Shown: one piece after another, positions 15,201 through 57,103 of the stretch
Layout: each line of letters starts with the position of its first letter
Position numbering within the stretch: the first letter of the stretch is position 1
Assembly (NCBI GenBank): GCA_963971285.1
Contig: OZ020262.1
Coordinates: 3,660,082-3,724,081 of the forward strand
Direction: 5' to 3'
From: Astropecten irregularis
Taxonomy: Eukaryota; Echinodermata; Asteroidea; Paxillosida; Astropectinidae
Length of the DNA: 64,000 nucleotides
Position numbers and translations under genes: made by a program
Notes under the pieces: model-generated
Seen by the model: only the letters and a program-made list of their open reading frames with translations
The model's database searches: none
Told to the model about the DNA's origin: nothing

Positions 15201-18200
15201 TTATAGGCTATCTTGGCCCGCTATACTATCTTTGTAAAGATTTGGTCATTACCATTATTGTACCATCTAGGTTTGAGGAGCTCTTGGATACCAACTCGCA
15301 CATGTTCCAGTTGTTCACCATGGCACCTCGTTGGGTAGCCGTTCGCATGGATATCATGGGAGCCGTACTGGCCGGGTTGCTAACATTACTCGTCCTGCTT
15401 AGCAAGGACACGGTCTTCTCACCTGCCCTGGCTGCTATGGCACTGTATCAGGCCGTTATGGTAAGAGGAAATATAATACATATCCATATTAAGACTTCCC
15501 TGTGTATGTGATGTTCAAGAGATGGATATTTTTCTTTTGGGCAGGGCATTTTTTTTTATGTTATGCACAATTCACAGTGCAGGCACAGTAATGCTATTTT
15601 AACGTGAGGTGCTGCTTCAAATGAAACTTAAAGGTAGTATCATACTTTGGTAAGACACCAAAACAGATATGTTCACAGATTGATGTATAACTTACAGGGT
15701 ATGAAGATGGTGGTGATAGAAACATACCGTCAAAATTCTTCCGCCTGAAATGGTGTTTTTATCCAGAAATTAGTAAAACAACGACCGAAAATCTTTTTCA
15801 TCTTTTAAAAGATCCAAAATAAAAGAGAAAAGACTTAAGAAATACTGTGGCCGTTTTTCACTGTTTTCTCAAACAGTGGGCATCGTATGGGACTGAAATT
15901 TTCACAGATGACTGTTACTGTATCGTCCTTGACATTTATGCCCATGAATCTGTATTTCTTTGACAAAAAACCAATGTATGATACTACCTTTAAGGGAAAC
16001 TACGGAGCTTTAGAGGTGCCATCCGACTTTTTGAGATACTGAGATAATTTATCATTGGATGACAACATCCTTAAGTCAAGATGTCTACATCGTGATAATT
16101 TATCACAAGATGACGACATCATGGGATAATTTATCACGAGATGACGACATCCTTGGATAATTTATCACGGGATGACGACATCCTGGGATAATTTATCACG
16201 GGATGACGACATCCTAAAATCTTGTCCTTAATATGTCGTTATCCCGAGGTAATTTATCTCAGGATCTCAACAAGTCGGATGGCACCTCTAGCGCTCCGTA
16301 GGAAACAAAATTTAGAGGTATAGTATCATACTTTGTTAGGAAAGATTTATCTATAACTTACAGGGTATAAAGATGATGCTGATAAAAAGTGAGAAGTGAA
16401 GTGAGATTAGAGAAATTCCGTGGGCGTTTTTCACTGTTTTCTCAGAAAAATCGGCATCGTATGGGACTGGGAATTTAACAGATCACTTTTACTGTATCTT
16501 TCTTGATATTTTTACCCATGAATCTGCATTTCTTTGACAAAAACCAAAGTATGATATTACCTTTAAAGGTAGTATCATACTTTGGCAGCATACCGAAACA
16601 GTAATCTTCACAGATTTACCTATAACTTACAGGGTATAAAAATGGTGGTATTAGAAACATACTGTTCAAATATTTCTGCCTGAAACGATGTATTTATCCA
16701 GAAAAGAGTAAAATCAGTGACCAAAATAATGTTAAAATCTTTTAAAGATCAAAAAATTAAAGAGAAAAGACTTCAGAAATACTATGGCCGTTTTTCACTG
16801 TTTTTTCAAAAAGTTGGCACCGTATGGGTCTGAAATTGTCACAGATGACTGTTGTTGCATCTTCTCTCATATTTTTGCCAATGAATATGTACATTTGTGT
16901 ACTTCTTTGACAAAACCAAAGTATGATATTACCTTTAAAGGCTTTGCATAGTTTCTACTGAAATAGAGTGGGTACTGGGAAATGACTGATTTTAATGCGA
17001 TCGAGTTGGGTTCCATGGATGTACCCTTTGAAAGATAAAGATTGGTAAACTCCGACTTTCCATTGAAATAATGGGAATATCATCTAGCGACAGTATTATA
17101 CTGGTGCCCCAAACCGCAATCTAAAAGTGAAATGGCTCTGATCTCTGAAAGTAATGCAGACACAATGACTTAATTTGAACCCTTTTTCATAAGAGTCTTG
17201 TTGATCTTTACGATTAGATAACGGGTGGTTTGTTGCAAGAGGTCGTGGTGTCATGCACTCAGACTGAGAGTTCCTTCATATCCGTTGAGAGAATAATGGA
17301 GTACATCCAGGTAAGCACAGCAAGTGGATACTCAGGATTCACAAAGTCATGCATGAGTCTAGTGTGTTATCTTTAACCCCATTCCCATCCTATTTATCTT
17401 CTGATCGCAATGTCACAGAAAACGCCGTCCGAACCTGATGTTGTTAGTAAGGCTTGGAGGCCTAATGACACCTGGCCAGCCAACGGGGATATTAAACTCC
17501 AGCAGGTCAAGATGAAGTACCGACCGGATCTTCCTCTCGTCTTGAAAGGCATCACGTGCCACATCCGGCCCAGGGAGAAGATTGGCATTGTGGGAAGGAC
17601 AGGGTCAGGTACAGACCATGTCGCGTTTTGCCGGCCCGGCCTCGAACTATTATGGGATTTTGTGTACAAGATTTTAGAGCACACTGTTCCACAATATCCA
17701 ATATTGTTTCACAATTTCTCATTGTACCCTCACAGAACAAAGGGTATGCCTACATGCTGAACTAACGAAAAAAAGGGCCTATGTGACATAATAAGGCGCT
17801 ATACTAGCATGATACAGCCCGATAGCAATAACTTTACCACCTAAAAAGGTCTATAAATGTGCGTATACAGACATTGCTGTTTTTTCTAAACGTGGGGTGC
17901 CGTGTCCTAGTGATCTGGTGTGTTGTACTCATGGTCTTGTGGTCAATGTACAGACGGTTCGAATCCAGCCATGGGTTAATGGTGCTTGTATCCTTGAGCA
18001 AGACGCTTTGTCACAATTGCTCCTCTTCACCCAAGTATAAATGGGTACCTGCGAGAGTAGAGATGGTTCTGTGCTTGATTAGTCTTCGTGTACTTTACAG
18101 TATAGCCGGGACTGATACTCCCTATGGAGTTGAAATGGTTTTAGGAATGAATTAATGTAGCCCAATGACCAGGGATAATAATAATGTAGGCGCCTTGGTT

Positions 18201-21200
18201 GGTTTCCGTATAAGTGCGGCATTTTATAAATCCATATTGTTTTATCAAACAAATGATACTGGCTAGCATTGGCGGCCAAATGTTGCAAAATATTTGTTTT
18301 CTAGACAGAAGTGAGTTGTCTTCAACTTCTGTAAAGAAAAATGTTTCAATAAAGTAGGCCTACATCTCATTATTGTGTCTTTAGTTCCCGGCAATTTTGA
18401 TGAATTCTTGAATGTTTGTGAAACATTCCGTATAAACTAGTATCCGATTTACTTTGTATTGGTGGCTTCCCTTAGGGCTTCAAGACTGTGTAAATGTAAA
18501 TAATATTGTAACAAGTAATCTGTCTCAGCATTGGTGTATGATATCAAGGACTTCAGTTACTGACATCTGATTCTGACCTTCAGGCAAGTCATCGCTCGGT
18601 GTGGCCCTCTACCGTCTAGTTGAGATAACATCAGGTGAACTGCTCCTAGACGGGGTGAATGTAGCAAACATCGGCCTCCATGATCTACGTTCTAGACTCT
18701 CCATCATTCCCCAAGATCCAGTTCTCTTTGCTGGAACACTGAGGTAATATTAGGGACTCCAAGACCCTCTGTTTAATGAACCTTTCATCTCTTAAACACA
18801 GAATAATGTAAATGTCGTTGTTTGGGGGATTTGTGTTTTGTCGTTTTTTTTATCGGTTTTTTTTTTTTTGGTGGGGGGGATAACCCTAAGCGTAAACGTA
18901 CATTGCGCGCTTAGAAATAGAGTACAGGATTGATATCATACCCAAACAGAAAGGTTCATTATTATATTTACGTATAACTTTCAAGGTATGGAAATGGTGC
19001 TTAGGGCGCCCCTTTTTATTACTGTGGTTCTCATTTCTTTTTCACCTTGAGGGTGGGTCGGTCGGTCGAACCCAAAAAAGTTTGGTGGGGAAACAATATG
19101 GCTGAATACATAAAAACCTAAGGAAAATGATGGGAAATGTTCATTTTATTCACTGCAATCTCGTTTGAATATTTTTCTTTATTATTTCTGTGATAGAAAG
19201 TATAAAATGTAGGCCTATTGGAAAAATTTGTCTCCACAAATTCTGGAATTTTTTTTTTTCTTGAATTTATATTTTGTCATTCTGGACAGGGTCGGCGGCG
19301 AAAAAAAAGTTGTTTTTTTCTTCGGTCGGAGCCCAAAATATGGGTCGGTCGGAAATGAGAACCACAGTACTGCTAAAAAGGGGCGCCCTTATAGAAACAT
19401 ACCGTTAAAATATTTCTGCCTGAAATGGTGTATTTATCCACAAATTAGTCAAACAAAGACCGAAAACAGTTTTGATCTTGGGGTAAGATCAAAACCATTC
19501 TTTTTGTTTTGTAAGAACAATTTCGTCGGGTTTTTGCTATTTTCTCGTGACTCAGTTGTCCGATTGAGCTCAAATTTACACAGATTTATTATTTCATGTA
19601 TAGGGGGCCTACATGTTGGATTAGACAAAGTGTGGGTGCTGTTCTGTGACCTTTACCAATCATTTATCATACCTTTAAGTCAGTTCTCATCGGAGAAGCT
19701 TTTGGGACAAACTAATATACTTCATGAAAACAGGTCTTTAATTGTTCCAAGAGCAGCCATATTCTAAGAAATAAACAACAACAACAACAACAAGGAAGAT
19801 GAGAAAGGGAATCTTAGGTATGTGGAATTTGTTTGTCATTGGAGTAGATTCTTACAAATATGTATATAGGGATGTTTTGGTCAGACTGTAACAAAAAAGA
19901 GTTCTTAAAAAATGATATATCCTGCCACACACTTGACTTAAAACGTGTCACTGGAATGCATACGTTTGTCCAGAAAGGAAATAGTACAAGTGTTTTTAGC
20001 AGCTCTGAGTTCTGTTTGAAAAAAGAAAGCCGTTAGCCTTTGGCGAACATCATCATTGTACTTTACCTAATTCAACTTTATCTTCTTCTTCTATATATGT
20101 TCTTTTTGCAGATTTAATTTGGATCCTTTGAATCAGTACTGGGATGAAGTTATATGGGACGCACTGGAGAAGACATACATGAAACAAACGGTATTTGTCA
20201 TTGACTCTTTGCTTCTCTTAGCCAAACAAACAAAATTTCGATGTAGTAATGTTGTGTTAATCTAAACATCGTTTCTCATCGTGTTTCTCTTGTTTATTAC
20301 ACACTAGGTGAGTGCATTGGACAAGCAGTTGGAGGCTCCTGTCATGGAAAACGGTGATAACTTCTCCGTTGGAGAGCGGCAGCTCATATGCATGGCTCGC
20401 GTTCTACTGAGAAATAGCAAGGTAATAGTGATATTAATCAACTTCATACTTTGTTTTTTTGTCAAAGAAATGCAGATTCATGGGCAAAAATACCAAGGAA
20501 GATCAGTAACAATCATCTGTGAAATTCCCATTCCCATACGGTGCCCACTTTTTGAGAAAACAGTTTGTAACGCTCACGGTATTTTTGAAATCTTTTCAAA
20601 GGTTTTTTGATCTTCCGGAGATTTTCTGGATAAATCCACCACCATCTTTATACCCTGTAAGTAATATGTGGTAGGGTAAATATTTCTGCTTCGGTATGCT
20701 CCAAAAATATGATACTACCTTTAATTCTATAGCTCAACAAGAATGTTCATAATAATAATAATAATAATATTGAACACATATAATGCGCCGGTATCCGTCA
20801 AGCATGACGTTCATTGCGCAAATCAATTACTATCCCTGGTCATCGGGCCATAATTTACATTTCTGAAACCATCTCAATTCCCTGGGGAGCCCCCAGCTAC
20901 CATAAGGTGCAGATAGAGAGGCTAATCAAACCACAAAGCCATCTCTACCCTCACAGGTACACATTTTTTACCTGGGTGAAGAGTAGCAATAATGCGACAA
21001 AGCGTCTTGCTCAAGGATACAAGCACCACTACCCTATGGCTGGACTCGAACCCTCAATCTGTAGATTGACCACAACTATTATCTTGAGTTTGACACGCCA
21101 GACCACTAGGCCAGAGAGGTAGAGAAGTGCCCAGTTGCTGTCCAGCCAACAGGCAGAAACTAATGATAATTTAGAAAAATATGATAGTCATGGCGGAGGT

Positions 21201-56748: not shown

Positions 56749-57103
56749 TTAAGGATGTTCCAATTTGTGAAGAGAGTCAATATGAGGCTGTTTCATAATA
56801 ACCATGCCATATAGGTCATAAAATATAAGTGAGGTATTATTAATTATATACTAATACACAATAGTATCACAGTGTTTACTTCCATCATCTTGAAAGCATG
56901 TTACTGTATACATTTAATTGCCTTAATGTTTGAACGCACGTTTGAAAGTTTGTAAATATTGTTATTCCCAGTAATTTCGATTTCCACCGGAGATCAAGGC
57001 CTAAAACTAGACCAGCAAGACTTTCCGTTCTTATTTTATTGAATTGTTTACATAATAAATCATCACATAGGCCTAACTGAGTTACCGAGTCTTACTTGGC
57101 TCT

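Follow-up and report, generated by a model that had tools for sequence, protein, structure and literature searches.

The 64,000-nucleotide window analysed here, taken from contig OZ020262.1 of the sea star Astropecten irregularis, carries on its plus strand most of one animal ABC transporter gene, whose transmembrane and nucleotide-binding domains follow the order TMD1-NBD1-TMD2-NBD2, together with four tandem copies of the 3' end of that gene. Pieces of exons w1-w16 read from the window and joined by hand, with approximate edges, found their best PDB match in human ABCC5 (E = 3.2e-213), followed by ABCC4 (3e-140). Likewise, the NBD2 end matched human ABCC5 best (1.8e-127), ahead of ABCC2 (2.2e-114). 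Judged by best match among solved structures only, the gene is of the ABCC5 (MRP5) type; its first exons fall upstream of the window. The last single-copy exon, w16, which covers the end of TMD2, spans 15271-15460; its start was placed by eye from a ctag acceptor, and its end, at the donor ATG/gtaaga, is exact.

Behind w16, self-BLAST of the window delimited four units on the plus strand at 17163-27561 (copy 1), 27562-37983 (copy 2), 37984-47757 (copy 3) and 47758-57103 (copy 4), the last of which is recognizable to about 57098-57103. Within the window, the 300-residue protein end matched only these four units (tblastn, E <= 0.01), and self-BLAST (>150 bp, E 1e-10) revealed no second copy of the TMD1, NBD1 or TMD2 exons. 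Together with exon mapping, these searches bear out the initial annotation, which had proposed that exons w17-w23 and their 3' flank form four in-frame tandem copies behind single TMD1, NBD1 and TMD2 segments. Amplification of the flank along with the exons holds for copies 1-3 but not fully for copy 4, in which the 3' flank of the unit is truncated at its far end.

In copy 1, exon mapping placed w17 at 17218-17310, w18 (up to the Walker A glycines) at 17419-17608, w19 (Walker A lysine and Q-loop) at 18584-18743, w20 at 20112-20190, w21 (ABC signature FSVGERQ) at 20308-20421 and w22 (Walker B VLLMDEA and H-loop IAHRL) at 23743-23907; w23, including the stop, lies at 24207-24308, with AATAAA at +180 and +209 past the stop. 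The corresponding exons w17 to w23 of copy 2 lie at 27617-27709, 27818-28007, 29004-29163, 30532-30610, 30728-30841, 34165-34329 and 34629-34730. Those of copy 3 are found at 38039-38131, 38240-38429, 39426-39585, 40892-40970, 41087-41200, 45247-45411 and 45731-45832, and those of copy 4 at 47813-47905, 48014-48203, 49197-49356, 51202-51280, 51396-51509, 55197-55361 and 55680-55781.

Exons w17-w23 amount to 903 coding bases with the stop in each unit, and their lengths and phases are equal in all four. Each of the 4 x 7 exons is bounded by the expected splice dinucleotides, none contains a frameshift, and the NBD2 motifs are intact in all four copies; splice sites, phases, catalytic motifs and stop are thus kept throughout, as had been claimed. 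Furthermore, w16 does close on a whole codon at 15460, and w17 opens in phase 0 in every copy, so that all four w17 exons are compatible with it. Splicing of w16 to w17 of copies 1 to 4 would remove introns of 1757, 12156, 22578 and 32352 bp, respectively. Homologous 3' coding ends therefore follow one shared exon in tandem and in the same phase, a layout like that of C-terminal tandem duplicated exon substitutions.

The four 300-residue ends vary at five positions, and those of copies 2 and 3 are identical. Copy 1 departs from the latter at W44 and I56, and copy 4 at S53, S125 and V238; at the nucleotide level, codons 12, 22 and 23 of w17 and 43, 44 and 56 of w18 distinguish copy 1 from the other copies, and codons 53 and 54 of w18, 125 of w19, 184 of w21 and 238 of w22 distinguish copy 4. 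With only five of 300 residues variable, protein diversification is unlikely, in agreement with the initial annotation.

Copies 2-4 all open at one and the same base, 55 bp before w17, and are preceded by an identical foreign flank (unit end acggcc); they therefore descend from one ancestral junction (27532-27591, plus strand; the base is repeated at 37983/37984 and 47757/47758) that was later multiplied. That junction connects the 3' flank to a single breakpoint 55 bp ahead of w17, and multiplication of the unit then proceeded in steps, a process best ascribed to unequal crossing over. In the head of the unit (the 55 bp plus introns 17 and 18), copy 1 differs from copy 3 by 7.2% and from copy 4 by 6.2%, and copies 3 and 4 differ by 4.7%. 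Copy 1 fits the original, junction-free head because its head is the most diverged from those of copies 3 and 4. The tail introns of copies 1, 3 and 4 show mutual differences of 3.5-4.2%.

The ages of the copies are unequal. A 10.42-kb tandem duplication, whose first member at 19111-29194 recurs at about 29531-39616 with about 99.75% identity, is very recent. The recent duplicates differ at 26 columns, 15 between copies 1 and 2 and 11 between copies 2 and 3, or about 17 events when one 10-column cluster is counted once. The breakpoint lies in intron 19, between copy 1 positions 18774 and 19111, and copy 2 is therefore a recent mosaic, its head resembling copy 3 and its tail copy 1; the 12 columns at 19066-19098 where copy 1 differs from copies 2 and 3 were placed outside the recent unit. 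In intron 21, 22623-23015 of copy 1 and 54081-54475 of copy 4 are 99.5% identical and copy 3 is about 6% off both, a tract that likely arose by gene conversion. At 38825-38836 in copy 3, ten of twelve bases differ from 28403-28414 in copy 2 amid near-identical surroundings; this segment resembles a local copy of the adjoining TCCTTGGGCAA and is probably a template-switch change. The 3' flank of the unit is itself internally duplicated (25956-26690 and 26816-27565; 92%) in copies 1 and 2 and single in copy 3, and these duplicates are rich in AAGCAATTGCTT-like palindromic repeats.

We observed that exons are far less diverged than introns in the three old pairs of copies. Differences numbered 8/903 in exons vs 283/6124 in introns for copies 1 and 3, 11/903 vs 237/5770 for copies 1 and 4, and 7/903 vs 264/6096 for copies 3 and 4 (0.8-1.2% vs 4.1-4.6%; Fisher one-sided, 7e-10 to 1.3e-6). 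The remaining pairs include mosaic copy 2 and hence are not independent: 8/903 vs 97/6241 for copies 1 and 2 (P = 0.07 overall, 4e-5 in the head), 0/903 vs 200/6147 for copies 2 and 3, and 7/903 vs 211/5785 for copies 2 and 4. When intron flanks 21-150 bp from the exons served as the yardstick, the flanks differed 3 to 4.5 times more than the exons in the old pairs, with P = 2.9e-4 (1/3), 1.5e-4 (1/4) and 1.7e-5 (3/4), and P = 0.19 for pair 1/2. Furthermore, none of the six pairs shows an exon indel, against an expectation of 5.9-7.7 for the three old ones.

Synonymous changes account for 8 of the 13 variable codons vs 26.5% expected from the intron spectrum (P = 0.008), and for 6 of the 8 changes not private to copy 4 (P = 0.006). 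These counts give good support for coding constraint in copies 1 and 3 but not for copy 4, the branch-wise synonymous counts being 6/8 outside copy 4 and 2/5 within it. The initial annotation had raised the possibility of fresh duplications not yet decayed. For copies 1, 3 and 4 taken together we reject this, given the divergence of their introns, the lack of exon indels and the deficit of nonsynonymous changes; it holds for the 10.4-kb unit, and for copy 4 alone it is still compatible with the three nonsynonymous and two synonymous private changes. Decay into a pseudogene, as in a partial duplicate, was rejected as well, since no frame or splice site is lost in the four copies and the exons of copies 1 and 3 are constrained.

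Because the junction lies in the heads of copies 3 and 4, neither head has stood directly behind w16 since it formed. Their exons nevertheless differ at 5/443 positions (1.1%) and their introns at 54/1149 (4.7%; Fisher 2e-4). Had one of the two copies evolved freely (the one-free-copy null), the exons should show 10.4 substitutions (P = 0.053), or 12 events once indels are counted (P = 0.021); for pair 1/3 the same null in the heads gave P = 0.022. These values are suggestive, not conclusive, of constraint on the distal copies themselves.

Past the stop, the first 230 bases (24309-24538 in copy 1, plus strand, and the same place in copies 2-4) form a conserved proximal 3' untranslated region (UTR) in which copies 1 and 3 differ at 2/230 positions and copies 1 and 4, as well as 3 and 4, at 4/230 (range 0-1.7%). 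An AATAAA lies at +209 in copies 1, 2 and 4 or at +215 in copy 3, just inside the conserved segment. Further out (231-600), copies 1 and 3 differ at 16/347 positions vs the 2/230 found proximally (P = 0.008), a test for which only pairs 1/3 and 2/3 have enough alignment, as the flank of copy 4 differs there. This pattern fits a poly(A) site that is used in copies 1-3, but is hardly informative for copy 4. The earlier idea that the copies offer different UTRs finds little support, because the proximal 3' UTRs are nearly the same.

A dispersed element of about 370 bp occurs in both orientations at 5561-5933, 7460-7753, 8953-9271, 15625-15993, 16404-16941, 42268-42631, 52604-52969 and 61131-61495. 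Those at 42268 and 52604 are common to copies 3 and 4 of the array, and copies 1 and 2 lack them. Inverted partial copies of this element lie in intron 21 of every copy (e.g. 20444-20597 vs 15827-15981), and intron 16 and intron 21 RNA could therefore pair. Intron 16 also holds a 31-bp minisatellite of 3.9 copies (16094-16215). An open reading frame remnant at 33469-33855, with counterparts in intron 21 of the other copies, probably belongs to a transposable element; its only Pfam matches, Lipase_GDSL_2 (21.5 bits against a cut-off of 32.9) and VP4_helical (22.2 bits against 27), fall below threshold, and the other three of the four transposon open reading frame pieces searched had no Pfam match. 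Just past the array lie a C-rich stretch (57099-57708) and, beginning 605 bp beyond its end, a 200-N assembly gap (57709-57908, no strand), beyond which G-rich stretches occupy 60043-60640. No Rfam match at gathering thresholds and no tRNA were found in the window. Among genome contigs, a single-sequence query with NBD2 returned 28 pattern matches, two of which were relatives, both of them bacterial ABC loci at 27% identity, and a transposon open reading frame found no relative among viral contigs; queries of this type reach close relatives only.

The reading that we favour, tentatively and at somewhat less than an even chance, is that the locus is a real tandem array of partial copies, made of the last seven exons and 3' flank of an ABCC5 gene, whose distal ends would at least sometimes serve as alternative 3' ends. 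By the likeliest route, transcription would run past the copy-1 poly(A) site and w16 would be spliced to w17 of a later copy. The products would be near-identical full-length transporters, with ends differing at no more than five residues. In effect, the array would buffer 3' ends or set their dosage, and the protein itself would gain little that is new. Copy 1, the nearest and first transcribed, behind an intron of 1.76 kb vs 12.2, 22.6 and 32.4 kb for the others, probably supplies most of the mRNA, and copy 4 may be relaxing. In a bolder version, which we consider unlikely, the whole catalytic domain of w17-w23 with its 3' UTR and poly(A) site would be kept as a set of interchangeable tandem 3' ends selected for sameness and not diversity, a terminal cassette array backing up or dosing one half of an ATPase pair; as a splice from w22 into the following w17 would join phase 0 to phase 0, it could possibly add extra NBD2 modules.

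Several observations weigh against use of the distal ends. Each copy has its own AATAAA, and transcription may therefore end in copy 1; for human genes, evidence that gene-to-gene read-through transcripts yield stable protein is reported to be lacking (PMC9741552). The private changes of copy 4, three nonsynonymous and two synonymous (P = 0.40 for at least two synonymous of five), are consistent with neutrality, and two of them, G125S and A238V, replace a G and an A that are also present in human ABCC5. Moreover, the one-free-copy null in the heads was not rejected for pairs 1/4 (P = 0.13), 2/4 (0.14) and 1/2 (0.055), introns close to exons diverge less than deep introns, and with flank rates a one-free-copy null gives only P = 0.012 for copies 3 and 4. 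Because sequence is exchanged between copies, the pairs are interdependent, which makes the P values optimistic. Finally, the constraint could date from a time when the diverged alleles had not yet come to lie in tandem.

This last point leads to the possibility, which we take seriously while doubting it, that only copy 1 is used and that the distal copies are non-functional passengers, which would go back to already diverged functional alleles in a species of high heterozygosity and be kept fresh by crossing over and conversion. The very recent 10.42-kb duplication makes such refreshing visible, as does the conversion-like tract shared by copies 1 and 4 near 22623-23015, and coding changes that fit neutrality, like those of copy 4, would be expected. 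Conversion would, however, level introns and exons equally, yet the flanking introns are several times more diverged; the heads of copies 3 and 4, which have been distal ever since the junction arose, still show the exon-intron contrast, and three distal copies have passed without an exon indel or the loss of a splice site. An improbable alternative is that the copy number is partly a product of assembly, at least one junction being real and alleles or repeat paths having been strung together, so that there would be fewer or more than four copies per chromosome. The nearby gap, which by its fixed length presumably marks a scaffold join, the missing end of copy 4 and the recurrence of about 10 kb of copies 1-2 in copies 2-3 at 99.75% would all suit it. 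Against it stand the threefold presence of an identical junction base, the non-identity of the recent repeats, the inserted element that only copies 3 and 4 share, and intron differences of 4.1-4.6% among three mutually diverged copies, which exceed the two haplotypes of one diploid. The shared junction and these three copies rule out two haplotypes placed in tandem as a full account, and they argue that the tandem copies are real, with the exact number of four less secure. We regard as very improbable that the distal copies give stand-alone NBD2 proteins through their own promoters or through spliced-leader trans-splicing onto an orphan w17 acceptor. Each distal w17 does retain its acceptor although the 3' flank of the preceding copy lies upstream; an in-frame TAG stands at the acceptor, and the sole in-frame ATG of each w17, codon 27 in AGAATAATGG, a good initiation context, would leave a whole NBD2 of about 274 residues. 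Codons 1-26, ahead of this ATG, are, however, also free of nonsynonymous difference, no promoter turned up, although none was searched for, and a lone ABCC NBD2 is not known to have a role.

If the distal ends are used, the array would offer a natural test of how the splicing machinery selects among near-identical terminal blocks that lie tens of kilobases from each other, and would exemplify selection for sameness in duplicated alternative ends. If they are unused, it would show that partial duplicates can seem constrained in a heterozygous genome, and warn annotators that exon-constraint tests on tandem arrays can mislead.

ABCC6P1 and ABCC6P2 are 5' parts of ABCC6. They are called pseudogenes and lie 2.3 and 1.3 Mb away (PMC3434077). 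Our array resembles them, and partial duplicates generally (PMC3449122), in consisting of incomplete gene copies that vary in number, but it is made of intact 3' parts directly in tandem. Of the 236 tandem duplicated exon substitutions in human annotation, 77 are C-terminal (PMC9741552), and the array is like these in its homologous duplicated 3' coding ends, single shared 5' part and retained key residues. The human cases, however, are annotated splice variants and mostly ancient, whereas here seven exons and a complete nucleotide-binding domain are present four times, nearly identical and known from DNA alone. Drosophila MRP, also an ABCC gene with internally amplified coding sequence, has mutually exclusive clusters of 2 and 8 exons from which one version is chosen (PMC4588896); those clusters are internal and their splicing is shown, unlike a 3' end with poly(A) sites as found here. 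No repeated 3' end of an ABCC5 gene appeared among the titles found in our literature search. In the IgM/IgD constant regions, one constant 5' part is joined to one of several 3' parts, and both there and in Drosophila mod(mdg4) the 3' parts differ in function. The layout proposed for the array is like that of mod(mdg4), where a constant 5' part is combined with any one of several 3' parts (PMC12692577). In both of those systems the joining is shown, whereas here it is proposed. What seems unusual in the sea star gene is that so large a block, comprising a whole catalytic domain and its 3' UTR, is present in four copies, and that these are so alike.

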